From Hyphomonas johnsonii MHS-2 (GTDB taxonomy: Bacteria > Pseudomonadota > Alphaproteobacteria > Caulobacterales > Hyphomonadaceae): DNA of 64,000 nt. A program made the translations under genes and the position numbers. Location: NCBI RefSeq assembly GCF_000685275.1, contig NZ_ARYK01000001.1, positions 372,001 to 436,000 of the forward strand, read 5' to 3'. Positions 27,518-45,421 of the stretch are shown piece after piece. The notes beneath the pieces are model-generated. The model was not told the DNA's origin. It worked only from the letters and a program-made list of their open reading frames with translations, and searched no databases. Each line of letters begins with the position of its first letter. Position 1 is the stretch's first letter.

Positions 27518-30500
27518 TCAGTTTGGAACGATCTTCGTGGTTTTTGACGCTGTGATCACGAATTGCCTCGGCGCCATGCCATCAACGTGCAGATCATATT
27601 TTCCCGCCACCAGTTCGATGGGGTCGCCACCGGAGGTTCCGCTCGCCACGCGTTCGCCGTCCTGGTAGACGGTAAAGCGAACTCGCGATGTGTTTGCCAG
27701 GGCGTTCTCAAGATCTGCGCCATCAGCAGCGTCGACATAGATGCCGCCTCCCGCCTTGGCCCATGCTTCAAAGGGGCGCCGGTCGACTTCCGGTTCCAGC
27801 GCGTAGCTGACCACGTCGATTCGCGCCTCAATTCCTGCAGCCTTGAGGCTCTGGATTGCCTGAAGCGGAAAGCCCCCGCATGTTTCCTCCCCGTCGGTTA
27901 TCAAAAGGATCGAAGCGGAAGCAGGCGTTGTCACGCTTTGCAGATCCTTCGCGGCGGCGAGCAGGGCCGCTCCGATCGCGGTTTTCGCATTGTTCTGGGG
28001 ACGAACGGACTTGATCGAAGATGCCAGTCGGTCATTGTCAAACCGTGTGACGGGCTGGATGAGGTCCGTGTCGCAGGAACTCGGCTCGCCGCCGAACACG
28101 CGCAGTCCGACGTTCAGTTGTTCTCCTGCCTGACTGCGCGCCAGTTGCGAATTTAGGTATTCGGCCAGCGCGGCCTTGGCGATATCAATACGCCGCCTGT
28201 CACCCAGCCGCTTCAGCATGCTGCCCGAGGCGTCCAGTATGATGAGTTGGCTGCGAACTGTTGTCTTGGGGTCTGGCGCCATCGCCGCATCGACTTGAAG
28301 GAAGCCGGGTTTCAGAACGACCACCTCGCCTTGGGCGCTCACGGAATAGGGTTTGGGGCCGAGCAGCCGCGCGGCGACCCGTGCATATGCTACCGATATA
28401 TCCTCGCTTTGCAGCACAAGCGAAACCTCGCCGCCGGTTTGGCCGGCCCAGAATGAGGCGCGGGGCTGTGAGATGGATGGATCCTGAAAGGTGGAATTTG
28501 AAGGAGTCTTGACAGCAAACACCCTGGCCCGGGCGGCGTGGAGTGCTTCGACAAGACCTTGCTTCGTATCGACATCGCCGTCGGTAATGACAACGATTGC
28601 GCGCGAGCCCTCCCGGTTCTCCAGGAGTTTTGCTGCATCCAACAGGGACGATTCGCCGGCACTATTGCTGCCGCCGTTATAGTTCGCGAGAAGCGGGCGC
28701 AGCGTTTCGGGATCGGTGATCCAGTCATCGCGTGCCCAGTCCCCTCCGAACGACTTGAACTGGACGGCGTCGCGCCCGGTCACCATATCGTCAGCGAAAT
28801 CGATAATTGCGCGTCGAATTTGCGGGATTTGGCTCGCTATGGATGCGCTCTGGTCGATCAGGAATACCACCGAGCGCTGGGGTTCGGATATTTCGACGTC
28901 AAGAAAGCTGCCCGGAGTCACATCAAATGTGTACGTAACTTCGGGGCGCAGCGGTGAGCGAACGATTTCGATCGGCTCTGTCTCGTTACCCGAAGAGTCC
29001 CTTGCGGAGACTGCAGGGTCGAAGCCGGCGCTGCCGCGTGCTGTGATCTTGAGCCTGTTTGTCTGGCCTTCTGCCGGCACGCGCCAGGTATCGGTACGTA
29101 CGCCGAATTCGACGGAGCCGTCCAGCAAGGGTGAACCCGGTACCAGTGCGCGGTGGCCTGGATCAGATGTGACGTCGGGTCTTGTGCCATTTCGCTCTTT
29201 GCCCAGGACGGCGCCAACAAAGCGATCCAGCCATTCGTGAACAGAGGCCAATGCCTGCTTCATCGTGGCCAAATCGAGTGCGTCGGGTTTTGCCACGGTC
29301 TTGGCGGTCGCGAATTCACCCCAGGTGCCAAGCGCGGACCGGTAGGTCTCGTCCTCCGGTCGTTCAATGAACTTCATTATCATCGGGGCGAGGAAGTAAG
29401 CGCTTTCGGGGTGCTCGTATTCAACTTTGACGGCGCGCGCAGACGACCATTCGGGTAGTTCGTACCGGATGGTCTGATTGGGCTGTGGTTGCGCTGGCAA
29501 GTCAAATCGACCGATTTCATGAAAGGGGCCGATGGGGCCATAGGCCGAAGCAGAGACGATGGCCGCGCTTGCAAATGGCCACCCATCGTCGGGGAAGGTC
29601 GCCGGATATACCGCCTCAACGGCTTCGATGTCGGCTTCCAACTGGTTGCGGAACGTGATGGCATTGTTGAAGTCTGTTGGGTTTCCCATGTCACCGGGGA
29701 ACCGTGTGACACTGCCTTCGGCTGCGTCAATCTGGAGGTGCCGGTTGGCTTGCATCTTGCGGTTGCCCGATACAAGTGCACCAAGTTCCTTGTCTGCAAT
29801 ATTGAGGTTGTTGAGACCGGAATGTCCGGGGCGAGCGATCACTTCGAATCCGCTAAGCGAAACTCGGCTGGCGTCCCCGCCTCGGCGATCAGTGGCGCGT
29901 AGCCTGACCTTCAAGGCATCAGCCGGGCCACCGGGGAATGCGTAGTATGCCGTCTGACCCCATTCCTCGTGCGCGCCGACCAGGACTTCGCGCCATTTCT
30001 TGCCGTCGCTTGAGACATCGATGGCAAAACCGAGAATGCCCTGCGGTGCATCCAGACGTGTATTGATGCCAATTCCGGCAATTGGAATTGGCTTGTCTCC
30101 GGGAAGGTCCAGTACCGGGCTGAGCACCTGCTGGCCACCACCTGAGAGTAAGCCTTCGTGATCGGTTCCCTGCGTTATGAAACCGTCGATCAAATTCAGG
30201 AGGTTACCTGCACCTGCGGGATTCCCACGCGCGTAGTCGCCATCTTCACCAACGCTGATGCCACCACTTTCCAGCCATTGCGCACCAAGGCTCGTACGCG
30301 CCACATTGATGCCGCCGGCCAGGGCAGGTGGCACCCGGCGCGCGGGTATTGCACCGACTGGCGCGGTGCGAAAACCCACCTTCAGATGGTGTTCGGTGCT
30401 GGCGACGATCGCGTCCTTGTCGGTGCGGACGGCGACAAAAAAGGGAAGGTCGCCATCGTAGAGGTCATCCGGAAGCAGGAAACTGACGACTTTCGTGGTG

Positions 30501-32581
30501 GATTCACCGGCAGCGAGGGACACGCTATAGGGGATGACTTCAATACCGGAGCGGGCGAACCAGAAGTCGAGTGTGCCGGATACGGGTTGCGTGGATGTGT
30601 TTGTGATGTTCAGAACCGCAGTCACCCGCTGGCGGAAGATGGAATAGGCGCTCACTTCTGCGACACGTGTCACGGCCAGTTTCAGGGCGGACGGAGTGGT
30701 AACAGGGAAGGGGTTGGCATAGCGCGCCGACAGTTTGTATTCAGCGGGACTTCCCGTGCGCGGTTCGATTCTCAATTCGTGCTCGCCGGCGGGAATTGAA
30801 ACCGTTCGTTTCCAGCCGCCCGGCTTGATGATTTGGCGGTCGAGGCTGGCGGACGCGTCGTCCGATGCCACTGAAAATGTCATGTAATATTCAGATCCAG
30901 GTGGCACATCAATCGACATTTCCACGAGCGCATTACGTGGCAAATACATCGAGAAGCGATCATCATCGCCCGTTGGAGAAACGCCTATTATCGGCTGGCC
31001 GATGGAAAGGCGACGAGGGACGTTCTCATTCGGCTCGCGCTCGGAATCTGCCCTCGGGCTTCCCAATGGCTTGGCGATAACCTTGTAGTCGCCTGGTGTG
31101 CCGTAGATGCTGATATAGACTGGGCCGGGCTCGAGGTAGACATCGGGCGCAACGAGGCGACGTGTATTTCCGCCGTGCCTGCGGATATCGGCAATCTTGC
31201 CTCTGGCATTGCTCAATTCAATTTGGCCCACCGACTCGCCCAGCACCATGATGCGCCAGAGTTGACCGACATCACCGGTGTTGAACCCGATCGTATCGGT
31301 ATCGTCGCTTGTCGAAAGCGCGCCTTGGATCCGGAACGCACCTTCAATGATCGGCTGGAATCCAGGAGAGGAATTGGGTTCGAAAACCGTGTCCTGTGGG
31401 TTTGCCGTCAAGCGCTCAAGAGTTAGCTCGTAAAGTCCTCCGAAGTATGAATGATTCACGACGGTCAAGACAGTGTCTTTGCTTATCCGGAATGGAGAAA
31501 AGCGAATATCCCTGCCTTCGAGGCATTCGACGACCTTGTTTGTCTCTCTCAAACAGAGCCTGATATTCACGGCGCTGATAACGTGTACACTCGCCGCGCC
31601 GACCCCCGCGAGTTTTGCCAGGCTGAATCTATCTTCGTCCCTGGCGTCAAGCGGCATTGTATAAGTCTGTCCGATCGACAGGCTTGGTCCGGTGGAATAC
31701 TTGAGGTCCGAATTGGGTTCGATCGGCCCGTCGGCATACTGGCTGGGCTCTGCCACGAGACGCCAGCTTCCTGTTTCTTCATCGTCCCTAGATCTTACGC
31801 AAACAGCGCTGTCTTTCAGCCGAATGCCCGAGATCGCCAGAGAGCCTTTTCCGGAACGCGCCTCGGCCCGATTAGCCTTGGCCGAGTAGACGTACATTTC
31901 CACCGAACTAGTTGGCGCGCTGACAAGGGCCAGGTCGACAACTTTGTTGGCCGAGAGGAGGGCCGGCGTCATACAATGCGTTTCACCATTGGCTGGCCCA
32001 CTCACATCGTTTCCGACGGGGAGCGCCTTGCTTGGGGCATTGGGAAGCGAAGCGGGAGATTGCACCGGTACAATCCGCTCGACCGTGAGCGTGACGTCCA
32101 CGGGGTTGAGTGGTGCAAGCCCCAGATAGATGCGGCCGGGCTTGAACGTCGTGGCGGGCAATCTCGCAGTCCGGTCCCCAAATCCACGCGTGGAATCGCT
32201 CAGCAACTTGGTGCGGGCAGTCGGTTGGTTGCGCTCATTGAGCTCGATCGTGTTTGCTTCCAGAACGATGCTGACGGGCTCGGCGGCCTCAGCGGAGAGC
32301 TTGTAGATGTCGGCGGTATCGGTGACGTCAAAATGATAGACTGTGCTCTCAACGAGTTTGAGTTTGACTTCGGCCAGCCCGTCCACAAATTCGAGCGGCG
32401 TGCTTTCGAGGGCCGGAACTTCTGATGTTCCGCCGAGCTTGGACAGGTCGGGGACCTGACTCCATGCGGCGCTGCTGCTGATCTGTGCACCGAATGCTAC
32501 GACAAGGAGACCATTGCGCAACTGCTTCGTCACCCAGCGCATCGACTGCTGTAAACCCTCCATAATTGATTGCATCTGCAT
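27518..32581 (-). CDS. giant exported protein with PPC-like, discoidin-like and two VWA domains
   Basis: A 1687-residue exported protein with an N-terminal signal (LLVVAFGAQISSSAAWSQV). Residues about 60-650 contain several PPC-like beta-sandwich repeats, one clearly marked by SEREPNENVPRRLSIGQPII and GDDDRFSMYL. A CARDB-like segment (about 660-740) and one or two discoidin/F5-8C-like modules (GFAIDVSSDGKKWREVLVG) follow. The C-terminus carries two von Willebrand A domains with MIDAS motifs: VVFLIDQSASI (about 1240) and LIILDASGSM (about 1450) with TDGEETCGG. No C-terminal membrane anchor is visible. The ATG overlaps the upstream stop as TAATG. It looks like a metal-dependent surface or periplasmic binding protein; its ligand is unknown. 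Confidence 0.85.
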   Translation of the reverse strand: MQMQSIMEGLQQSMRWVTKQLRNGLLVVAFGAQISSSAAWSQVPDLSKLGGTSEVPALESTPLEFVDGLAEVKLKLVESTVYHFDVTDTADIYKLSAEAAEPVSIVLEANTIELNERNQPTARTKLLSDSTRGFGDRTARLPATTFKPGRIYLGLAPLNPVDVTLTVERIVPVQSPASLPNAPSKALPVGNDVSGPANGETHCMTPALLSANKVVDLALVSAPTSSVEMYVYSAKANRAEARSGKGSLAISGIRLKDSAVCVRSRDDEETGSWRLVAEPSQYADGPIEPNSDLKYSTGPSLSIGQTYTMPLDARDEDRFSLAKLAGVGAASVHVISAVNIRLCLRETNKVVECLEGRDIRFSPFRISKDTVLTVVNHSYFGGLYELTLERLTANPQDTVFEPNSSPGFQPIIEGAFRIQGALSTSDDTDTIGFNTGDVGQLWRIMVLGESVGQIELSNARGKIADIRRHGGNTRRLVAPDVYLEPGPVYISIYGTPGDYKVIAKPLGSPRADSEREPNENVPRRLSIGQPIIGVSPTGDDDRFSMYLPRNALVEMSIDVPPGSEYYMTFSVASDDASASLDRQIIKPGGWKRTVSIPAGEHELRIEPRTGSPAEYKLSARYANPFPVTTPSALKLAVTRVAEVSAYSIFRQRVTAVLNITNTSTQPVSGTLDFWFARSGIEVIPYSVSLAAGESTTKVVSFLLPDDLYDGDLPFFVAVRTDKDAIVASTEHHLKVGFRTAPVGAIPARRVPPALAGGINVARTSLGAQWLESGGISVGEDGDYARGNPAGAGNLLNLIDGFITQGTDHEGLLSGGGQQVLSPVLDLPGDKPIPIAGIGINTRLDAPQGILGFAIDVSSDGKKWREVLVGAHEEWGQTAYYAFPGGPADALKVRLRATDRRGGDASRVSLSGFEVIARPGHSGLNNLNIADKELGALVSGNRKMQANRHLQIDAAEGSVTRFPGDMGNPTDFNNAITFRNQLEADIEAVEAVYPATFPDDGWPFASAAIVSASAYGPIGPFHEIGRFDLPAQPQPNQTIRYELPEWSSARAVKVEYEHPESAYFLAPMIMKFIERPEDETYRSALGTWGEFATAKTVAKPDALDLATMKQALASVHEWLDRFVGAVLGKERNGTRPDVTSDPGHRALVPGSPLLDGSVEFGVRTDTWRVPAEGQTNRLKITARGSAGFDPAVSARDSSGNETEPIEIVRSPLRPEVTYTFDVTPGSFLDVEISEPQRSVVFLIDQSASIASQIPQIRRAIIDFADDMVTGRDAVQFKSFGGDWARDDWITDPETLRPLLANYNGGSNSAGESSLLDAAKLLENREGSRAIVVITDGDVDTKQGLVEALHAARARVFAVKTPSNSTFQDPSISQPRASFWAGQTGGEVSLVLQSEDISVAYARVAARLLGPKPYSVSAQGEVVVLKPGFLQVDAAMAPDPKTTVRSQLIILDASGSMLKRLGDRRRIDIAKAALAEYLNSQLARSQAGEQLNVGLRVFGGEPSSCDTDLIQPVTRFDNDRLASSIKSVRPQNNAKTAIGAALLAAAKDLQSVTTPASASILLITDGEETCGGFPLQAIQSLKAAGIEARIDVVSYALEPEVDRRPFEAWAKAGGGIYVDAADGADLENALANTSRVRFTVYQDGERVASGTSGGDPIELVAGKYDLHVDGMAPRQFVITASKTTKIVPN

Positions 32582-34884
32582 TACTCTAATACAGCGCGGC
32601 AGACGTAGTCTGGTAATGGTATGGCTGCGCCTACTATTCCGCCGTAGACTATTTCAGTCCCCAGCGCTCCTGTCAGGTAAGCGAGCCCGCTTGCTCCCAG
32701 TTCAGTTATTCTTGACGCCCAGTTTGCGTTTGCTGCGGCTACGAACTTTCCTGCGCCAGCAGCTATCAACAAATTGCCGGCAAGACAGCAAACCCGCATC
32801 GACGGGTTGTCAGGATAAGATGCTTCGCAAGAATACGAAGCGTAACCGATGCCGAATGCTGTCACCGCACTGGACGCTGACTTCAAGAATGCGGCGTATT
32901 CCTTGGTTACTTCTCCTCCATTGGGGCCCATGCCCAATGTTTGTCCTGTGCGTGTATCTATCCGCCACCAAAGAGGTGTACTCTCGTGCTCAAGCAAGAC
33001 GAGGACGGAGCCCTGTTCGAAGTCGTCATTTAGACGATCACGAACCAGCAACGATACATTCGCCTGATCGCTCCAAGCTTTCAGGGAAGCCAAGTCCGGC
33101 AGAACCGCTGTGACGTCCCGTAGCCTCCAGTCACTTGTAGTTGGACCGGACCCGAGTGCGTGTTCAGCGATGGTGGTGCGGATACCTTGTTCAAAGTTAC
33201 CGGTGGGGTTAACAAAAACAGTTCCATTCGTGTGAGCCAGAGACAATGTTCCATCCGTGATGATATCGATCGTTTGGCGCATTATGCCTTTTGTGTTGGC
33301 GACGTGTTGAACACGTCGCATCGAGACCATCGGTCCGGTCCTGACAAGCCATCGATCATGCTTGCCGTTCTGGTTGAAGATGCTGCCCAGCGTAAGCATT
33401 TCCGTCCAGGAAGAGATGGATTGATCTGCTTCAAACGCGGGATGGGAAGCTGCGTCCTCGGGTGTGATCTTTCCCTCAACGATCCCTTTGTAATAGGGTA
33501 GAATCCTCGCGAAATCCGCTGCAGACTCCAACGTGTCCTTTATCGCGCGAGCACCATTTTCGGGTCCAACATCCACGTCAATTACACCATGGAAACTCAC
33601 CAGACGGCTTGGCGATTCAGGCATTTCCTGCCTGAAATCCGTCAGGCGACGTTCCGTACTGGTCGATGCTCCACCAGGTGAGATGTGGACCACCGTCAAA
33701 ATCACGCCGCTCAGCCGGGGGGCAGTGTCGGCTTTGCCGGTCGTCTCGTCCAACCCGCCCAGCGCGTCGCCATATTTCGATCCGACAGTCGCAAAGATCG
33801 CTGGGCCTGCGGCAACATCCTCCGCTGATGCAGTCAGCCCCTGCAATGTAAAAGCCTGCCCGCGTTCGGCAGGCGCCTGGTTCATGATCGGAATGAAATA
33901 AGCGGCTTCGCCGTCGCTACGGACGGTATCGGGCGCGATTCCGATATCGATTTGCGTCAGGGCAAGGTTGGCGGCTGGTCGGCTATAGGGGGACATGATG
34001 CTGATGCGCTCGAGCTTGTCACCCGTCTTGCGCTCTATCTCGAGGCGGATTTCGATCTTGTGCAACCTGTCATCGGGCACCGTTCCGGCAATGAATTGTT
34101 CAGGCTCGACCTTGGGCGCAGCAGCGTTCTGGAAAGCTGGATGTACATCGACCCAGGGGTCATTTGGCGTATTCCTGTAGCGGACCCAGACATACTCTTC
34201 AGCAATCTGAGCGACGAGACGATCTGTCTGAGCCGCATCAGTCTGGGCAATGGAAATGCCTGCCGTTGCGAGGCTGGCCGAGAGACTTTTCACGAGCTGC
34301 GACACATCTCGATCGGCCGCGAGTGTATTCTCGTCGGCATTCTGTTCCATGTCACGGGCTTCGGCGATGATCTCGTCCAGGCGAGATCTAGGCACGAATG
34401 GCTTGAGCGCTTCCGTAACGTCTTCGACCATGAGCCCTGTTGCCAGAGGTGCCCTGTCTTTGAAGCTGACTTGAAGGAGGCGTTCAGCATCCTTCTTTTC
34501 GAGTGTTCCCTTAACGATCATGGCCTCGCCCGCCATGCTGTTGATCAGGGCGGCCAGAAGAACAGCCTGGTCCCAGCTTGAGCCCGCCGACGCGGAAATC
34601 GTGCCTTCCGGCCCCCGCATCACGCCGAGGTAGGGATCGTAAGCAATATTGTCCCGAACGAAATCGGCGGCTGTCGCGACGTCATAATCCAGGCTCTCTG
34701 CCAGGCCATCAACGTCATAGAGTTCCAGCGGAATCTTCGATGAGAGGCCCCTGTAAGCGTCTGCGATGGCGCGTGCAGCGTCGCGTTCTGCGGCCGGTGC
34801 GATATAGGTGCGTGGTGCGGCGGTCGCGCTGAAGCTGAACGAAAAAGCGAAGGCTGCGGCGAGCACTTTCAGTTTAAGAGACAA
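32581..34884 (-). CDS. exported transglutaminase-like protein with lost catalytic triad
   Basis: A 767-residue exported protein. I choose TTG 34884, which has GAGGAG 9 bases upstream and yields a clean signal peptide (KVLAAAFAFSFSFSATAAP); another in-frame TTG at 34929 has no such site. Residues 85-250 match the transglutaminase core: AGSSWDQAVLLAALINSM fits the active-site helix, and EYVWVRY...WVDVHPAF the His/Asp strands. Ser103 replaces the catalytic Cys, Tyr231 the His and His248 the Asp, so catalysis is unlikely. The central 400 residues are beta-rich and unassigned. The last 85 residues have four Cys and two hydrophobic stretches, perhaps a membrane tail. It heads an operon with the VWA protein. 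Confidence 0.75.
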   Translation of the reverse strand: MSLKLKVLAAAFAFSFSFSATAAPRTYIAPAAERDAARAIADAYRGLSSKIPLELYDVDGLAESLDYDVATAADFVRDNIAYDPYLGVMRGPEGTISASAGSSWDQAVLLAALINSMAGEAMIVKGTLEKKDAERLLQVSFKDRAPLATGLMVEDVTEALKPFVPRSRLDEIIAEARDMEQNADENTLAADRDVSQLVKSLSASLATAGISIAQTDAAQTDRLVAQIAEEYVWVRYRNTPNDPWVDVHPAFQNAAAPKVEPEQFIAGTVPDDRLHKIEIRLEIERKTGDKLERISIMSPYSRPAANLALTQIDIGIAPDTVRSDGEAAYFIPIMNQAPAERGQAFTLQGLTASAEDVAAGPAIFATVGSKYGDALGGLDETTGKADTAPRLSGVILTVVHISPGGASTSTERRLTDFRQEMPESPSRLVSFHGVIDVDVGPENGARAIKDTLESAADFARILPYYKGIVEGKITPEDAASHPAFEADQSISSWTEMLTLGSIFNQNGKHDRWLVRTGPMVSMRRVQHVANTKGIMRQTIDIITDGTLSLAHTNGTVFVNPTGNFEQGIRTTIAEHALGSGPTTSDWRLRDVTAVLPDLASLKAWSDQANVSLLVRDRLNDDFEQGSVLVLLEHESTPLWWRIDTRTGQTLGMGPNGGEVTKEYAAFLKSASSAVTAFGIGYASYSCEASYPDNPSMRVCCLAGNLLIAAGAGKFVAAANANWASRITELGASGLAYLTGALGTEIVYGGIVGAAIPLPDYVCRAVLE

Positions 34885-35148
34885 GGGCGTCTTCTCCTCT
34901 TCGAGATGAATTTCGGTGTGCGAAACCAAGCCTTACCGTAGCGCCGCACACTCGCCGCGCAGAACTTTATCGACCAACTTCGCGAAAACCGACGGTTCTT
35001 TCCTTTTAATACGCATTGCCGAGGCGAAATCCGCCAAGGAAATTCAAGATCACCCTGCAACAGCATTGATGATCGCGCCAAGTATTTTGGCGGGGTCGAC
35101 GTGCCGAACGCGTTGAGAAGAACGGGGATGCAGAAATTGGAGCAAGAA

Positions 35149-38202: not shown

Positions 38203-38414
38203 GGCGTGTCTTTCTGATCCTTCGGGAGTGTCTCGCTCACGACGTCGGTTATCAAGACATCAATGCGCCATCGCGGCCCACGCGCATCCCCTTTCCCAAT
38301 CCCTTTACGCAACCACCACGGATATTCCGCCACGCAGAGTCATGTGGCGGATCACGGCACGAAGATGCGTTTGACACAATAGGGCGCACAACAACACAAA
38401 AAGGGAATTACACC

Positions 38415-39188
38415 ATGCTTCGATCAAAACTGGCCTTGTCCGTCGCTGCTTTCAGTGTCCTCGCGGCTGCCGGTCCGGCCAAGGCGCAGGAGATCGCCGT
38501 CTTTGGACCCCCAACAGTCTCCTATCAGGGACAGCGAACAATCGTGACAAACGAGGCGAGCCTGAGCCAGACCGTTTATTCCAAGCCCGGCAAGAACCGC
38601 ACCGAAATGACCATGGAGGGCCAGACCCTGATTCAAATCTGGCGGGATGACCTGCAGACGATGTGGTCGCTTTCGCCGCAGCAGGGCTTTGCCATGGAGA
38701 TTCCCTTTGGAACCGATCAGGCCAAATCACCTCTCGATGGCCTGGATGAGCAGACTGCCGTTCTGGAAAAGCGTTTCATCGGGCAGGAAACGGTCAACGG
38801 CGTGGTGACAGATCACCATTTTCTTCGGGCGAGTGTGTCCGGGGGGGGCACGACATCCGGCGATGTCTGGACCACGCCCGAGAACATCACGGTGCGCATG
38901 CGAATGACGCAGGTTGAGCCGGGCCAGCGAGCTGAAAATATAAGCTACGACCTCAATGGGCTGCAACGGTCGTTCCAGGCGGACCACCTCTTTGAAGTGC
39001 CTGCCGGTTACCAGATCATGTCCATGGGAACAGGCGGCATGCCGACCGGTTTCGGAGCCGTTGGAGGCTATGCTGGCGACGTCGCGGGTGATGCAACCAA
39101 TGCCGCAAAGGACGAAGTTGACCGTCAGGTGCGCGGAAAAGCGAAGAGCGAAGCCGCCAAGGCCGTGCGCAAGATATTCAAGTGGTAG
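38415..39188 (+). CDS. exported periplasmic protein, DUF4412/LolA-like
   Basis: A 257-residue protein with a signal peptide (LALSVAAFSVLAAAGPAKAQ). The body alternates beta strands (QTVYSKPGKNRTEMTMEGQT, LIQIWRDDLQTMWSL) in the manner of DUF4412/LolA-like half-barrels that bind hydrophobic ligands. The C-terminal 45 residues become a charged helix (KDEVDRQVRGKAKSEAAKAV). AAGGGA precedes ATG 38415; the frame extends open upstream to 38067 but there overlaps the kinase gene start. It is divergent from the kinase and its promoter must lie within 38203-38414. The function is unknown. Confidence 0.72.
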   Translation: MLRSKLALSVAAFSVLAAAGPAKAQEIAVFGPPTVSYQGQRTIVTNEASLSQTVYSKPGKNRTEMTMEGQTLIQIWRDDLQTMWSLSPQQGFAMEIPFGTDQAKSPLDGLDEQTAVLEKRFIGQETVNGVVTDHHFLRASVSGGGTTSGDVWTTPENITVRMRMTQVEPGQRAENISYDLNGLQRSFQADHLFEVPAGYQIMSMGTGGMPTGFGAVGGYAGDVAGDATNAAKDEVDRQVRGKAKSEAAKAVRKIFKW

Positions 39189-39210: not shown

Positions 39211-39765
39211 TCAGGTCTGTGAATCGAGGAATTCAGCCAGGTATGTCCGGGCGCGGGCCCAGTCGCGCTCGACCGTCCTGACCGATCGCCCGAGTGCGTG
39301 TGCGGTTTCTTCGACTGTGAATCCCGCAAAGAACCGGCATTCCACAATGCGCTCGAGATCCGGCGCTTTCCTGGCGAGCGCAGCCAGCGCGGCGTCGACG
39401 TCCAGGATCTGGGTTTCCGCCGTACTGCCAGGTATCTGATAGTCGTCAATATTGACGTGCTCGGCACCGGCGCCGCGCTTCTCTGCAAGCTTGCGCCGGG
39501 CATGGTCGACGAGTACCTGGCGCATGGCGCGCGAAGCGGTTGCCAGATAGTGATTCCGGTCAGCAAATCGCCGGCCGCTGTCAGTTGACAGCTTGAGCCA
39601 TGCCTCGTGGACAATCATTGTTGTATTCAGCGTTGCGCTGGGGCGCTGGCGTCCGAGCTGGCGGGAGGCAATACGCCGAAGAACGTCATACGTCTCGGCC
39701 AGGAGCTCTTCCGAGAGGCTCAGAGAATGGCTGGTCGGCTCTTTTGGAGCGTGATTGGCTGGCAT
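39211..39765 (-). CDS. ECF RNA polymerase sigma factor, kinase-associated type
   Basis: A 184-residue ECF sigma factor. Region 2 shows RRIASRQLGRQRPSATLNTT and MIVHEAWLKL, then HYLATASRAMRQVLVDHARR, the form known from the TIGR02999-type group that neighbours Ser/Thr kinases. Region 4 is VECRFFAGFTVEETAHALGR plus SVRTVERDWARARTYL. I prefer ATG 39765; an in-frame TTG at 39804 would add residues without homology. There is no anti-sigma gene beside it, so phosphorylation by the nearby kinase is the likely control. Confidence 0.9.
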   Translation of the reverse strand: MPANHAPKEPTSHSLSLSEELLAETYDVLRRIASRQLGRQRPSATLNTTMIVHEAWLKLSTDSGRRFADRNHYLATASRAMRQVLVDHARRKLAEKRGAGAEHVNIDDYQIPGSTAETQILDVDAALAALARKAPDLERIVECRFFAGFTVEETAHALGRSVRTVERDWARARTYLAEFLDSQT

Positions 39766-39867: not shown

Positions 39868-40332
39868 CTATTCCGGTTCCGGGTCCATGATCAGGGACAT
39901 CGAGAATGTGGCGGTGCCGTCACCAAACATATCCATGACCATGATGCTGGCATCGTCCAGCCCGATCGTGTCGAAGCGGATTAGCGTTGCATTCCCTTTT
40001 TCGATCTCAAGGATTTCGTAGCCGTTCTTTTCGATCATCTCGGTGAAGAAGGCGACAGTCGACTCGACGGTGTCATTGACCTGCCCGTCCACCTGGTAGT
40101 TCCGGCTGGCATATTCAGGGGGCTGGCCACCCGATGCGCTGACAATGCGGGTGCCCACGGGGAAGTTGATCGTTTCAGGAAATCCTTCCGGCAGGGAGAC
40201 CTGTTCGGGTTCCGTGGACACGTCAGCTGGAGCTGGGCCATCCGCGACAGCCGGCCCGATTGGCACGATACCAAAGGCACCGGTCGCGATGGCAGAAAGC
40301 AAAAGGCGGCGCTTGAATACTGATTTCGTCAT
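39868..40332 (-). CDS. small exported protein of unknown function
   Basis: A 154-residue protein with a signal sequence (KRRLLLSAIATGAFGIVPIG). The mature part has PEGFPETINFPVGTRIVSAS, then one helix and a small sheet (VAFFTEMIEKNGYEILEIEK, ATLIRFDTIG, ASIMVMDMFG, FSMSLIMDPE). The helix-plus-hairpins plan resembles the lipoprotein at 35149. AGAGGAAAT before ATG 40332 sets the start; the open frame upstream is not coding-like. It lies upstream of the sigma gene on the same strand, 102 bases away, and may be co-transcribed with it. Confidence 0.68.
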   Translation of the reverse strand: MTKSVFKRRLLLSAIATGAFGIVPIGPAVADGPAPADVSTEPEQVSLPEGFPETINFPVGTRIVSASGGQPPEYASRNYQVDGQVNDTVESTVAFFTEMIEKNGYEILEIEKGNATLIRFDTIGLDDASIMVMDMFGDGTATFSMSLIMDPEPE

Positions 40333-40524
40333 GTTGATTTCCTCTTCTGACAGCCGCGAACGGGCCCATTGGATAGAACGCAATTGGCACGAAGTTCCCG
40401 CCATTCGTGCTGTCAGGCGGATGCAGGCGGGCATGTCACTGGCGAGCGAAGGAACTCGCTCGGGTTGGGCCGCCGCTGCCGATCCCACCAATTGTTTGAC
40501 ACATGCTGCATCTGATGCCAGCTT

Positions 40525-40538
40525 TGCTAGCGCTAACA
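40525..40538. promoter_or_regulatory. LacI-family operator before the glucosidase gene
   Basis: TGCTAGCGCTAACA is a near-perfect palindrome, one base away from TGTTAGCGCTAACA, the form bound by several LacI-family sugar regulators. It lies 28 bases before the GH3 start, a good place for repression. No lacI-type gene lies in this window, so the regulator would be elsewhere. Confidence 0.6.
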
Positions 40539-40565
40539 AAAATAACAAAATCCGCGGAGGATGGG

Positions 40566-42965
40566 ATGGAAGATCCCCACAGAGCACCGTTCAGGAAGAT
40601 GCTTTGGAGGTCATGCTTGGGAAAAGCAGCCGTCGTGATTCTGCTGATCGCTGCATCAGGGTGCGGACTGACGGGGGCGGCGGCGCCCCTGAATACGGAA
40701 CTGGCCGACGAGGGAAGAACCACGGCTGGTCAGGCGACAGCGAACGGCCTTCGCGGGGCAGAGCGTGTGGAGTTTATCCTCGAGCGGATGGCGGTCGAGG
40801 AGAAGCTCGGGCAGCTAAATCAGATGGCGGGCGGGCGACAAATTGCGCTCAATTCGCGGATCACGGATGCCGAATACGACCGGGTCCGGGCGGGCGGGGT
40901 TGGCTCCTACCTGCATGTCGCCGGAGCAGAGTTCCTCGGTGGGCTTCAGCGTGTTGCAGTGGAGGAAAGTCGGCATGGCATTCCGCTGCTGTTCGCGATG
41001 GATGTCGTGCATGGCTACCGCACCATCTTTCCGGTGCCGCTTGGCATCGCGGCGACATTCGATACCGTGGATGCGGACCTCGCCGCGCGGGTAGCGGCGG
41101 TGGAGGCATCTGGCGCAGGATTGCACTGGACCTTTGCCCCGATGGTGGACATTGCGCGCGATGCACGCTGGGGGCGCATCGTGGAAGGTGCTGGAGAGGA
41201 ACCCTTCTTCGGGTCGGCAATGGCGCGGGCGCAGGTGCATGGATACCAGGACGGGGACCTGACGCGGGCGGACACAATCATCGCCACCGCCAAGCATTTC
41301 GGCGCCTATGGCGCAGGTGCAGGCGGGCGCGACTATGACAGCGCCGATATTTCCAGGCGCACGCTGATGGATGTCTACCTTCCGCCTTTCCGTGCTGCAG
41401 CAGAGGAAGGTGCCGCGAGCTTCATGGTGGCATTCAACGATATTGGCGGGGTGCCGACCACGGCGAACAAGGCGCTCCTCAACGACCTGCTCAGGGACGA
41501 GTGGGCGTATGAGGGACTGGTGGTCAGCGACTGGAACGCCGTGCCGGAGCTGATGAACCACGGCGTTGCGGAAACGCGCGCGCAAGCGGGTGCATTAGCA
41601 CTTTCGGCCAGTGTGGACATGGAGATGACAAGCGGTATCTATGCTGGCGACATGCTGGCCGCCGTGAAGGCCTCGCCCACGCTGCAGGCGGCGCTGGATG
41701 CTTCAGCCCGGCGTGTGCTCATGGCCAAGGAACGCCTCGGCCTGTTCGATAATCCGTATGCCTATAACGATCCGGACCGGGAGGCGGCGGTGATGCTGAC
41801 ACCGGACCATCGGGCGGCGGCGCGGCATGTTGCGGAACGTTCGCTGGTGCTGCTGCGCAATGATGAGAGGCTGCTGCCGCTCAAGGCCGCGCCGGGCAAG
41901 GTGGCTGTCATTGGTGCGCTTGCCGATGATGCGCGCTCCATGATTGGCTCATGGAAGGCGCAAGGGCGCGAAGAGGACGTGATCACGCTGGTGGACGCCC
42001 TGCGGACGCGGCTGGGCGAGGCGCATGTCGTTTATGAGCCCGGTGCGGGTGCGCGCGATCCAGCCGATCCGGCGGCGATCGGACGGGCCGTTGCTGCGGC
42101 TGAAGCAGCAGATGTCGTCATCCTTGTGACGGGCGAGGATTACAATTTTTCGGGCGAGGCGCGCTCGCGCTCGGATATTGGTCTTCCGGCATCACAACGA
42201 GTGCTTGCTGAAGCCATCCTGGCAACGGGCAAGCCCGTCGCAACGGTGTTGATGACCGGGCGTCCGTTGGACCTTGGTCCACTGGACCATGAAGGCGCTG
42301 CGATCCTTGTTGCCTGGTTCCCCGGAGTCGAAGCAGGGCCGGCCGTCGCGGACGTGTTGTTCGGCGATGTGTCGCCGGCTGGGCGTCTGCCCGCATCCTT
42401 CCCGCGCCGGACCGGGCAGTCACCTTCCTTCATCGGGCATTATCCGACGGGGCGGCCTGCTGACGAGGACCTGTCGAAAGACAGTGCGCGCTACATGGAT
42501 ACCCCGATCACGCCTGCCTATGCCTTCGGCCACGGGCTCAGCTATGCGACGTTCGAGTATGGCAATCTTCAGCTGTCGGGTGACACGCTGGCTCCCGGCG
42601 ACACGCTGACAATCAGTGCAGATGTAACAAACACCTCGCGTACGGATTCCGATGAGGTGGTGCAACTTTATGTGCGCGACCCCGTCGCGCAGGTCGCAAG
42701 GCCGCAACAGGAGCTGCGCGGGTTTGCACGGGTGCCGATTGACGCAGGGAAGACGAAGCGTGTGGCGTTCACGCTGCGGCCGGAGCAATTCGCCTATTTT
42801 GCGCCTTCCGACAAATTCGAAGTGGATGCGGGGCGGATCGATTTTGGCATCGGGGCGGGGTCAGCCGACATTCGCCTTTCGGGCAGCTTTCAGATCACAG
42901 CACCGGTGATGGCAGGCGGTCCGGCGGCGGCGTTGGCGACGCCGGTTTCGATTTTGGAGGAATGA
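40566..42965 (+). CDS. glycoside hydrolase family 3 beta-glucosidase lipoprotein
   Basis: A 799-residue BglX-like enzyme. A lipoprotein signal (AAVVILLIAASGCG) precedes the TIM barrel (AVEEKLGQLNQMAGG, AMDVVHGYRTIFPVPLG, AKHFGAYGAGAGGRDY). The nucleophile is Asp322 in GLVVSDWNAVPEL. The second alpha/beta domain (RSLVLLRNDERLLPLK, GEARSRSDIGLP) and a C-terminal fibronectin-III-like domain (ADVTNTSRTDSDEVVQLYV) complete the usual length. GGAGG at 40556-40560 sets the ATG at 40566. It releases glucose from beta-glucosides in the periplasm and begins a likely operon with gluconolactonase and gluconate uptake. Confidence 0.93.
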   Translation: MEDPHRAPFRKMLWRSCLGKAAVVILLIAASGCGLTGAAAPLNTELADEGRTTAGQATANGLRGAERVEFILERMAVEEKLGQLNQMAGGRQIALNSRITDAEYDRVRAGGVGSYLHVAGAEFLGGLQRVAVEESRHGIPLLFAMDVVHGYRTIFPVPLGIAATFDTVDADLAARVAAVEASGAGLHWTFAPMVDIARDARWGRIVEGAGEEPFFGSAMARAQVHGYQDGDLTRADTIIATAKHFGAYGAGAGGRDYDSADISRRTLMDVYLPPFRAAAEEGAASFMVAFNDIGGVPTTANKALLNDLLRDEWAYEGLVVSDWNAVPELMNHGVAETRAQAGALALSASVDMEMTSGIYAGDMLAAVKASPTLQAALDASARRVLMAKERLGLFDNPYAYNDPDREAAVMLTPDHRAAARHVAERSLVLLRNDERLLPLKAAPGKVAVIGALADDARSMIGSWKAQGREEDVITLVDALRTRLGEAHVVYEPGAGARDPADPAAIGRAVAAAEAADVVILVTGEDYNFSGEARSRSDIGLPASQRVLAEAILATGKPVATVLMTGRPLDLGPLDHEGAAILVAWFPGVEAGPAVADVLFGDVSPAGRLPASFPRRTGQSPSFIGHYPTGRPADEDLSKDSARYMDTPITPAYAFGHGLSYATFEYGNLQLSGDTLAPGDTLTISADVTNTSRTDSDEVVQLYVRDPVAQVARPQQELRGFARVPIDAGKTKRVAFTLRPEQFAYFAPSDKFEVDAGRIDFGIGAGSADIRLSGSFQITAPVMAGGPAAALATPVSILEE

Positions 42966-44060
42966 ATGCAGTATAAAAGGCACCTGTCCACGGTGATGGT
43001 GATTGCCGGACTGATGGTTATGGCGGGTTGTGAATCCGAGAGGCAAGCGTGGGAACCGACGCTGCCACCTGCGAGCCTTGTGTATGCACAGCCGGAGGGC
43101 GCCGGGATTGTGGTTCTCGATACAGCGCTTGCAGCGGAGGTGGTCGACGAGGGGGCGAAGGTCGAACAGCTGACGGAGGGCGCATTTGGCTGGTCCGAGG
43201 GGCCGGTCTGGATCCGGGATGGCGCATATCTTCTGTTTTCGGACGTCCCTGGAAATGCGATCCACAAGTGGAGCGCGGAGGCCGGCCTGGAAACCTTCCT
43301 TCAACCTTCGGGCTATGTCGGGGAGGACACGGACGGCGTGTTCCGGGAGCCCGGCGCGAATGGCCTGATCCGCGGCGACGCGCCGGGCACGATCCTGTTG
43401 GCCGACCATGGTAACCGGGCAATCGCGCGGCTCGATCTTGAGACAAAAGAGAAGACTCTCCTGGCAACACATTTCGCCGGCAAGCGGTTCTCCAGCCCCA
43501 ATGACCTCGTGCTGGCAGGAGATGGTGCCATCTATTTTACCGATCCCCCCTACGGCCTCAGGGACATGGATACGTCGCCGTTCAAGGAACAGACGTTCAA
43601 TGGCGTGTATCTCTGGCGACCGGATGAAGGCGGCGGCACGATCAGCGTGATCGATGACAGCCTGACCCGGCCGAACGGCGTGGTGCTCTCGCCGGATGGC
43701 AGCACGCTTTATGTGTCAGTGTCGGACCCCGAGGCTGCGCGGGTTTACGCCTACACTTTGGGAGTGGATGGACTGGCCACGGATCGGCGCGTCTTTGTGG
43801 ACCTGACGCCAATGGTGCAGCAGGGCTACAAGGGTTTGCCGGACGGCATGGCAGTTGACGTTGACGGGCGCGTCTACGTCGCCGGGCCTGGCGGCGTGCA
43901 TGTGTTCCTGCCGGATGGCACGCCGGTCGCGCGGATCGTGACTGGCACGCCGGTGGCAAATTGTACGTTCGGCGATGACGGTCACACGCTCTACCTGACA
44001 TCGGCGGCGTTCCTCGCGCGCGTGCGGCTGAAGGCAACCGGTCTCGGCTTTCGGGACTGA
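42966..44060 (+). CDS. SMP-30/gluconolactonase family lipoprotein
   Basis: A 364-residue lipoprotein (signal with MVIAGLMVMAGCES lipobox). The beta-propeller has the SMP-30 metal-site motifs: FGWSEGPVWIRDGAYLLFSD with the Glu ligand, REPGANGLIRG, FSSPNDLVLAGDGAIYFTDP with Asn/Asp ligands, and RPNGVVLSPDG. It hydrolyses sugar lactones such as glucono-1,5-lactone to the acid. It starts directly after the glucosidase stop (GGAGGAATGA overlap region), so it is co-translated and probably acts in the periplasm before GntP import. Confidence 0.92.
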   Translation: MQYKRHLSTVMVIAGLMVMAGCESERQAWEPTLPPASLVYAQPEGAGIVVLDTALAAEVVDEGAKVEQLTEGAFGWSEGPVWIRDGAYLLFSDVPGNAIHKWSAEAGLETFLQPSGYVGEDTDGVFREPGANGLIRGDAPGTILLADHGNRAIARLDLETKEKTLLATHFAGKRFSSPNDLVLAGDGAIYFTDPPYGLRDMDTSPFKEQTFNGVYLWRPDEGGGTISVIDDSLTRPNGVVLSPDGSTLYVSVSDPEAARVYAYTLGVDGLATDRRVFVDLTPMVQQGYKGLPDGMAVDVDGRVYVAGPGGVHVFLPDGTPVARIVTGTPVANCTFGDDGHTLYLTSAAFLARVRLKATGLGFRD

Positions 44061-44065
44061 CGGCG

Positions 44066-45421
44066 GTGGGGGAGTCAGCTTACGCGCTGGTAGTCGTCGC
44101 CGCGAGCATAGCGGCGCTGTTGGGGCTGATCCTGCGTGCACGCATTCCGGCATTCCTTGCCTTGCTTCTCGTCAGTGCAGGCTTCGGCATCGTTTACGGT
44201 ATGCAACCGGCGGCGATCATCCAATCGATACAGTCTGGCATGGGTGGCACGCTGGGTTTTGTCGCCGTCGTGGTGGGGCTGGGTGCGATGCTGGGCGCGT
44301 TGCTCGACGTCTCAGGCGGGGTGCGCGCGCTGTCCACGGGTATGCTGAACGCTTTCGGCGAACGGCGCGCGCCGCTGGCACTGGGATTTATCGGCTTCGT
44401 GGTCGCCATTCCGGTATTCCTGGATGTGGCGCTGATCATCCTCGCGCCGGTGATCTATGGGCTGACGCGCCGGACCGGTCGGCCGATCGTGGCGTTTGCG
44501 ATTCCGCTGCTCGCGGGCCTTGCTGTGTCACACGCTTTCATCCCGCCTACGCCGGGGCCAATTGCGGTGGCGGATATTTTAGGCGCGGACCTGGGACTCG
44601 TGATTGCGTTCGGGGCGCTCACGGGTCTGCCAGCGATGTTGGTGGCAGGGCCGCTGTTTGCGGGCTGGCTGGAGCGGCAACCGGCGTTTCAGGGCGGGGT
44701 GCCTGCAGGGCAGGAAACTCAGACGGTCGATGCGGAGGTGGGATTCCTGACTTCACTGGGCATTGTCCTGGTGCCGCTCGTGCTGATCGTTGCTGGGACG
44801 CTCGTGAACACGCTGGGTAAGGCAGGCATGCTGGAATTGCCGGAGGTCGTTACGCGCTTCGTCATGTTTGCCGGGCATCCTTTCATAGCGCTCATGATTG
44901 CGTGTTGCCTGGCATGGTTCGTATTCGGGAAAATCCACAGCGTGCCGTCAAAAACTCTGACAGGGGCGATGGTCAAGGCGTTGGAGCCTGCTGGCGTGGT
45001 CGTGCTGATCACGGGGGCAGGTGGCGCTTTCAAACAGATCCTTGTGGATTCCGAAGCAGGCGCGGCGCTGGCGGCGACTCTGACGGCGACGGGCATGTCG
45101 CCCTTGTTGTTCGGCTTTGCTGTCGCGGCGATCATCCGGGTTGCGCAGGGCTCGGCGACTGTCGCGATGCTGACGGCGGCTGGGATAGCGGCGCCTGTGG
45201 CTGAGTTGGCCGGGCTCAGCCCGGGCGGAACGGCGCTGATGGTTTTGGCAATTGCGTCGGGGGCAACTGTGCTCAGCCACGTCAATGACAGTGGCTTCTG
45301 GCTGGTCAGCCGGTATCTTGGATTGTCAGAAGGGCAGACACTGCGCAGCTGGACGGTGACGTCAACCTTGGTGGGGCTCGTCGGACTCGCGGCCACACTG
45401 CTATTGTCACTTTTCGTCTAG
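44066..45421 (+). CDS. gntP: gluconate:H+ symporter, GntP family
   Basis: A 451-residue, about 12-TM permease. Family features include GGTLGFVAVVVGLGAMLG, PVFLDVALIILAPVIYGLTR, HAFIPPTPGPIAVADILGAD and NDSGFWLVSRYLGLSEGQTL. GntP proteins bring gluconate (or related sugar acids) across the inner membrane. A GTG at 44066 is the probable start, 5 bases after the lactonase stop. Its stop codon shares the palindrome CTAG with the stop of the convergent gluconokinase gene. Confidence 0.93.
   Translation: MGESAYALVVVAASIAALLGLILRARIPAFLALLLVSAGFGIVYGMQPAAIIQSIQSGMGGTLGFVAVVVGLGAMLGALLDVSGGVRALSTGMLNAFGERRAPLALGFIGFVVAIPVFLDVALIILAPVIYGLTRRTGRPIVAFAIPLLAGLAVSHAFIPPTPGPIAVADILGADLGLVIAFGALTGLPAMLVAGPLFAGWLERQPAFQGGVPAGQETQTVDAEVGFLTSLGIVLVPLVLIVAGTLVNTLGKAGMLELPEVVTRFVMFAGHPFIALMIACCLAWFVFGKIHSVPSKTLTGAMVKALEPAGVVVLITGAGGAFKQILVDSEAGAALAATLTATGMSPLLFGFAVAAIIRVAQGSATVAMLTAAGIAAPVAELAGLSPGGTALMVLAIASGATVLSHVNDSGFWLVSRYLGLSEGQTLRSWTVTSTLVGLVGLAATLLLSLFV

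Follow-up and report, generated by a model that had tools for sequence, protein, structure and literature searches.

A degenerate transglutaminase-like protein and a giant VWA protein are encoded as a conserved pair in a putative ECF43-type sigma factor–kinase cassette of Hyphomonas johnsonii

Analysis of 64,000 nucleotides of the Hyphomonas johnsonii MHS-2 genome (contig NZ_ARYK01000001.1, positions 372,001 to 436,000; hereafter the window, to which all coordinates refer) indicated that two adjacent genes, encoding a degenerate transglutaminase-like protein (TG) and a giant protein with VWA domains, share a cassette with the genes of a transmembrane Ser/Thr kinase and an ECF43-type sigma factor. 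This regulatory cassette lies outside the two genes treated in a first-pass annotation of the same DNA, which did not mention it, and is the main new result of this study. The pairing of the genes, the degenerate triad of TG, the cassette and a motif shared by its genes are all read from the sequence. We lean toward the view that TG and the VWA protein are an obligate exported pair that serves as the main output of a local kinase–sigma switch and likely forms a ligand-binding complex.

The two genes are both on the minus strand and were found at the positions reported in the first-pass annotation, which had described a two-gene exported unit with the stop and start codons overlapping in TAATG. 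The TG open reading frame (ORF) extends from 32581 to 34929 (782 aa), and a TTG start at 34884, located 3' of a purine-rich stretch, gives a protein of 767 aa (32581–34884). The giant protein, P0002 (27518–32581), has 1687 aa. The N-termini of both proteins look like signal peptides when judged by eye, and the predicted export or surface location of the pair is likewise a by-eye judgement. P0002 consists of EPN/PPC-like repeats, a discoidin-like stretch and then two C-terminal VWA domains, and two stretches of it matched the Pfam family VWA_2 (PF13519; E = 1.4e-16). The second domain, VWA2 (approximately residues 1446–1630; 27692–28246, minus strand), has a full MIDAS pattern, whose D-S-S-T-D residues were invariant in 6/6 aligned VWA domains, four of which come from TG-VWA pair proteins. 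The first domain, VWA1 (approximately residues 1237–1405; 28367–28873, minus strand), retains DxSxS and TDG but has Glu at the Thr position, so that the initial description of two MIDAS-bearing domains holds in full for VWA2 only. Among seven aligned VWA1 sequences the Thr position was Glu in five (four Hyphomonas-group sequences and that of locus L144) and Thr in those of loci L145 and L146. The discoidin-like stretch (residues 830–902; 29876–30094, minus strand) matched F5_F8_type_C, but at E = 0.0032, under the Pfam cut-off, and in a profile comparison it weakly matched a module of hyaluronidase/NagJ (E = 0.12). Residues 288, 401 and 516 mark EPN motifs that we read as PPC-like repeats, but P0002 had no Pfam match to the PPC family. 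An AlphaFold2 model of residues 41–1229 had a mean pLDDT of 44.2, too low for use, and sequence searches against solved structures gave weak matches or none.

A relationship of TG (minus strand) to transglutaminases was suggested by a sub-threshold match to Transglut_core (PF01841) with an E value of 0.008 and 16.9 bits against a cut-off of 23, and a distant relative of TG in locus L145 scored 26 bits, above that cut-off. To locate the catalytic positions, we took the segments GSSWDQA, EYVWV and DVHPA to correspond to the usual Cys, His and Asp motifs, which places Ser103, Tyr231 and His248 at the triad positions of the window protein. None of the seven aligned TG sequences has the Cys-His-Asp triad of PF01841, as the Cys position is Ser in five and Ala in two, the His position is Tyr in 7/7 and the Asp position is His in 7/7. 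(Locus L037, which has only the 3' half of TG, was left out of this count.) The transglutaminase is thus as degenerate as first described, and TG is probably a pseudoenzyme. Four Cys residues are invariant in all seven sequences. More distant TG-domain proteins had a readable segment at five of eight loci, in which the Cys position was Ala in three, Ser in one and Asp in one, and the His and Asp motifs were retained in 4/5. The AlphaFold2 model of TG was also too low in confidence for use (mean pLDDT 35.5).

A gene for a giant VWA protein directly follows that for TG at 8/8 loci, conserved adjacency being the test that the first-pass annotation had itself put forward for its reading. These loci are the window, L034 and L035 (both in G033), L036 (Hyphomonas beringensis), L037 (Hyphomonas sp. 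BRH_c22, G014), L144 and L145 (both in G631) and L146 (G543). L034 and L035 come from one metagenome-assembled genome with 2% contamination and possibly not from one cell, and L037, in which a contig end leaves only the 3' half of TG, was counted for adjacency. In L037 the 5' half of TG is replaced at the end of contig C66 and the remainder looks near-identical to the copy on contig C3 of G033, so this locus may represent an assembly break. The TG profile matched 8/105 genomes of the same family, and six of these, from two genera, hold the eight loci; the matches in G020 and G023 were to a short N-terminal TG domain only, inside long ORFs, and these were excluded. Identity to the window proteins falls to approximately 25%: for the large protein it is 44% in L144, 25% in L145 and 25% in L146, and for TG it is 37%, 24% and 25%, respectively. 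As the pairing is kept at such low identities, the association of TG with the VWA protein is old, and we consider it very likely that the two proteins of this conserved exported pair have a joint function. At L145 (3483–13167) the divergent pair lies downstream of what appears by eye to be a conventional ECF sigma and anti-sigma pair, and the same output may therefore be wired to a different regulator there.

The distribution of the pair is narrow. Broad conservation across Alphaproteobacteria, which the first-pass annotation had proposed to look for, was not borne out, as none of 384 other genomes sampled from the class (385 with its own) had the pair when at most two candidates were scored per genome, a limit that distant pairs could escape. 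Among 398 genomes sampled from the phylum, five others matched only approximately residues 30–137 of the TG model, inside long ORFs. A plasmid search with TG gave no match, and no description of such a pair was found in literature on transglutaminases and VWA proteins at the level of titles and the starts of abstracts.

Upstream of the pair, the cassette comprises a small lipoprotein-like exported protein (part of P0005; 35149–35595, plus strand), with relatives 50–58% identical in L121 and L123; the 830-aa Ser/Thr kinase P0003 (35710–38202, minus strand), which has a kinase domain, one hydrophobic TM-like segment (residues 350–373, from hydropathy) and a C-terminal TPR region; an exported DUF4412 protein (38415–39188, plus strand; PF14371, E = 1.1e-5); the ECF sigma factor P0006 (39211–39804, minus strand, with a possible ATG start at 39765); and, in front of the sigma gene, a small exported protein (39868–40332, minus strand). 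The order small exported gene, sigma, DUF4412, kinase, TG, VWA is identical in L035 and L036, and the L034 stretch stops inside the kinase gene. In L034 and L036, TG is preceded by a lipoprotein-like gene that does not significantly match that of the window, and none was identified there in L035. P0006 matched both Sigma70_ECF (PF07638; E = 3.1e-38) and TIGR02999 (E = 9.9e-56) above cut-off. Where most sigma factors have an acidic DAED it has NTTM, and this NTT segment (NTTM or NTTL) is present in 8/8 aligned orthologues, with L121 and L123 left out of the alignment. With its ECF domains, an adjoining Hanks-type kinase gene and a conserved Thr in the replaced DAED segment, P0006 fits an ECF43-type sigma factor. 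No anti-sigma gene and no other regulator gene were recognized in the cassette. Beside it, at 40503–45421, genes for a GH3 glycosidase, an SMP-30-like lactonase and a GntP permease lie in a row, an apparent sugar-acid catabolic cluster.

A promoter-like motif, TGGCGGR-N14-YRCGTW, occurs once ahead of each of the five predicted transcription units of the cassette. It was derived by aligning upstream regions of the window, L034, L035 and L036. Exact matches in the window are at 35010–35036 (minus strand, TGGCGGA-N14-TGCGTA) for the TG-VWA operon, 35088–35114 (plus) for the small lipoprotein gene, 38306–38332 (minus) for the kinase gene, 38345–38371 (plus) for the DUF4412 gene and 40377–40403 (minus) for the small exported gene, and for the sigma gene as well should the two be co-transcribed. 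Their distances from the start codons are 34–125 bases. The window has exactly five exact copies versus 0.09 expected, and 0/100 shuffles reached five; this count is partly in-sample, as four of the sites were used to read the motif and the site at 40377 is new. The whole genome has nine exact copies, five of them in the cassette, and a control with the reversed pattern gave five, so that roughly as many copies as the four found outside the cassette would be expected by chance. Each of these four falls in a mechanically called ORF of 150 aa or more. Two (L050 and L051) are at or near a called start, which says little in a GC-rich genome, and that at L051 looks by eye like a tRNA-Leu gene. When up to two mismatches were allowed the motif was unspecific (40 copies in the window versus 23.6 expected).

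In 12 relatives, the copies cluster in the cassette where an orthologous sigma factor exists (6/15 copies in G012, 7/14 in G033, 2/6 in G015). G014 has nine copies, none on its cassette contig, which ends early, and eight genomes (G002, G004, G006, G007, G018, G019, G022 and G036) have zero to six copies and no cluster. A sigma search at E = 1e-30 had no match in seven of those eight and a 41% match in G022. Across 398 genomes of the order (its own included), there were 10 loci in nine genomes with a sigma factor at least 64% identical to P0006, and all 10 have the motif. Seven of these (L093 and L120–L125) were out-of-sample, although the L093 copies had already been seen before the test was set up, and they contain 2, 2, 1, 2, 2, 3 and 3 exact copies, respectively, or 15 in 135,007 bases, whereas 100 shuffles averaged 0.1 copies and never exceeded 2. 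A scan of spacings from 8 to 23 with the half-sites fixed gave 44 relaxed copies at distance 15 in 11 loci versus 0–2 at each other distance, and 24 versus 0–1 in the seven test loci. With a slightly wider pattern, 43/45 copies were inside cassette limits that were drawn after viewing the loci. For five of the 15 exact copies in the test loci, the 250 bases downstream contained no called start, and one copy was located 170 bases into a called ORF; as the caller retains the longest frames, it can hide starts, three of which were hidden in the window. No exact copy was present at 10 loci whose TIGR02999-type sigma factors are non-orthologous. These data strongly suggest that the cassette genes are regulated by the neighboring sigma factor through the shared motif.

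Comparison of the 10 orthologue loci revealed that what the putative regulator would control is variable. The sigma and kinase genes are common to them and the DUF4412, lipoprotein and small exported genes are often present, and the large exported cargo varies. The TG-VWA pair occurs in three (the window, L035 and L036) and is absent from L093 and L120–L125, so it is an exchangeable cargo. L125 (11293–14433, minus strand; 1046 aa) and L093 (15623–18001, plus strand; at least 793 aa, where the stretch ends) have a cargo protein that appears by eye to be of Tat type, with an N-terminal half that hhalign matched to the TG family (probability 91.5%, P = 8.6e-7). That this cargo might be a TG-VWA fusion was also considered; the VWA part gained no support and its VWA-like motif is unproven. 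L123 (11267–17037) and L124 (12369–16522) have exported-looking cargo proteins of 974 and 948 aa, respectively, which are 52% identical and had no Pfam match, along with Cys-rich repeat proteins. Other cargo includes a VWD protein in L121 and a small lipoprotein in L122, and L120 has no recognizable cargo and, by eye, transposase-like ORFs nearby. Several cargo promoters fit only a relaxed motif. The pairs at L144, L145 and L146 have neither a relaxed motif nor a kinase of this kind in the stretch fetched, which shows that the pair can do without this regulator; the pair and the sigma–kinase regulator are thus separable modules.

Other sigma–kinase modules were also noted. In G015, a different module of the genus lies beside an exported VWA protein at L084 (5825–13242), where a neighbor matches YadA-type trimeric adhesins (Pfam); L085 (5195–12820) has a module next to an exported VWA protein, and L088 has a VWA-bearing ORF near the sigma and kinase genes. 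A third kind of module (L087, L089–L092 and L094) has a recurrent protein of ~550 aa (MASxPxVLxDPxxLAEF...) and a second kinase-like protein whose N-terminus resembles a zinc ribbon by eye.

Several other explanations of these observations were considered. It is improbable that the motif is an operator of another regulator rather than an ECF sigma promoter. Its assignment to −35 and −10 elements is itself a reading of the sequence, and the test-locus copies lacking a called start would suit an operator. Against this, the motif tracks the sigma clade (10/10 orthologue loci versus 0/10 with other TIGR02999-type sigma factors), every window copy points at a cassette gene, no other regulator gene was recognized there, and the motif has a fixed spacing and a CGT core, as do ECF promoters, which are of the form GGAAC-N16-CGTT. 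Only slightly more credible is that TG is an active enzyme of altered chemistry that relies on Ser103 and His248 to process or cross-link the VWA protein. Periplasmic proteases of the LapG type do act on adhesins, and the TG fold relationship (including the L145 match to Transglut_core), the large exported partner at all eight loci and the invariance of His248 in 7/7 sequences are consistent with such a role. That the Cys position is Ala in two of the seven sequences, that Tyr and His occupy the other two positions throughout, and that the five more distant readable TG-domain proteins also lack the Cys all argue against it.

The pair might instead be the input of the system, with the exported proteins binding a ligand and modulating the exterior TPR region of the kinase, so closing a feedback loop. 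The pair shares a cassette and a motif with the kinase, whose TM-like segment and C-terminal TPR region would suit this; however, the orthologous sigma factor and kinase occur without the pair at seven of 10 loci and three pairs occur without such a kinase in the fetched stretch, and we regard this arrangement as unlikely. Less readily set aside, though still the poorer prospect, is that the genes are an ordinary lineage-specific surface pair with a role no more defined than generic adhesion. The presence of the pair in only 6/105 family genomes, and the sigma–kinase module of L084, with an exported VWA protein and a YadA-type adhesin as its neighbors, would fit such a role, whereas the retention of the pairing down to 25% identity and its apparently dedicated regulation favor a specific joint function. 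Our preferred reading is that the pair is an output of the sigma–kinase switch, and we think it somewhat probable that it has a ligand-binding role at the surface or in the periplasm.

Gene sets encoding a MoxR ATPase, a VWA/DUF58 protein and a TgpA-like transglutaminase are known, and they resemble the operon described here in that transglutaminase-like and VWA proteins are encoded together. Unlike those sets, and in agreement with the first-pass annotation, no MoxR-type ATPase was found in the large ORFs scanned (18054–45421); in addition, TG has no triad and the VWA protein is an exported multidomain protein of 1687 aa. The linkage of an exported transglutaminase-like protein to a large surface protein is also reminiscent of LapG-type proteases and large adhesins, although TG differs from the former in its lack of a catalytic triad. 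The N-terminal TG-like domain of RHS-repeat proteins (by Pfam the long protein at L038:1-5351, and by eye the RHS-like protein of L039) is of the same fold family and has Ala in place of Cys, but it keeps the His and Asp where TG has Tyr and His with a VWA protein as its partner.

The closest parallels for the regulator are the ECF43 sigma factors. In the passages of the papers that describe them, the acidic DAED segment is replaced by one with a conserved Thr (QTTA/STTA), and the Thr at the DAED-equivalent site is phosphorylated by a neighboring Hanks kinase, examples being EcfK-PknS of Xanthomonas citri and EcfP-PknT of Vibrio parahaemolyticus (PMC13147305, PMC8999054). PknS is described there as having a kinase domain, a TM segment and a periplasmic TPR region (PMC13147305), and a Hyphomonas neptunium ECF43 is reported as kinase-activated (PMC8999054). 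The cassette resembles these systems in having the sigma gene near that of a TM and TPR kinase (the TPR layout being that of PknS only), in the replacement of DAED by a segment with Thr, and in that no anti-sigma gene was recognized. It differs from EcfK-PknS and EcfP-PknT in its output, which here would be TG-VWA and small exported proteins and not type VI secretion or polymyxin resistance, and from known ECF43 systems in that a promoter motif is readable from the sequence.

We propose that a signal would be sensed by the TPR region that the transmembrane kinase exposes on the exterior, and that this kinase would then phosphorylate a Thr in the NTTM segment of the ECF43-type sigma factor. Once activated, the sigma factor would use TGGCGGR-N14-YRCGTW promoters to transcribe the operon that encodes it, the genes for the kinase, the DUF4412 protein and the small lipoprotein, and the TG-VWA operon, which would create positive feedback. 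TG, having lost its triad, would most likely act as a disulphide-stabilised binding or scaffold partner, and the large protein would most likely use its discoidin-like stretch and VWA2, with the complete MIDAS, to bind a surface or envelope ligand. The phosphorylation, transcription from the motif, complex formation and ligand binding in this scheme are steps that we infer. A more speculative and rather doubtful extension is that the pair is a recognition pair, composed of a pseudo-transglutaminase and a metal-dependent VWA receptor, that is induced by the kinase and reports to its exterior TPR region; the phosphorylated sigma factor would then drive a surface-recognition or anti-predator response that amplifies itself, and relatives with the same regulon would have exchanged TG-like outputs.

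According to the passages of the papers cited above, the output is known for only a few of the ECF sigma factors that kinases activate. In the H. johnsonii cassette a candidate regulon can be read from the sequence, with a clear promoter-like motif, apparent autoregulation and few exported targets, so that a simple reporter would suffice to test the phospho-sigma mechanism. A candidate regulator for a pseudoenzyme–VWA pair may, in turn, provide a route to the function of that pair.
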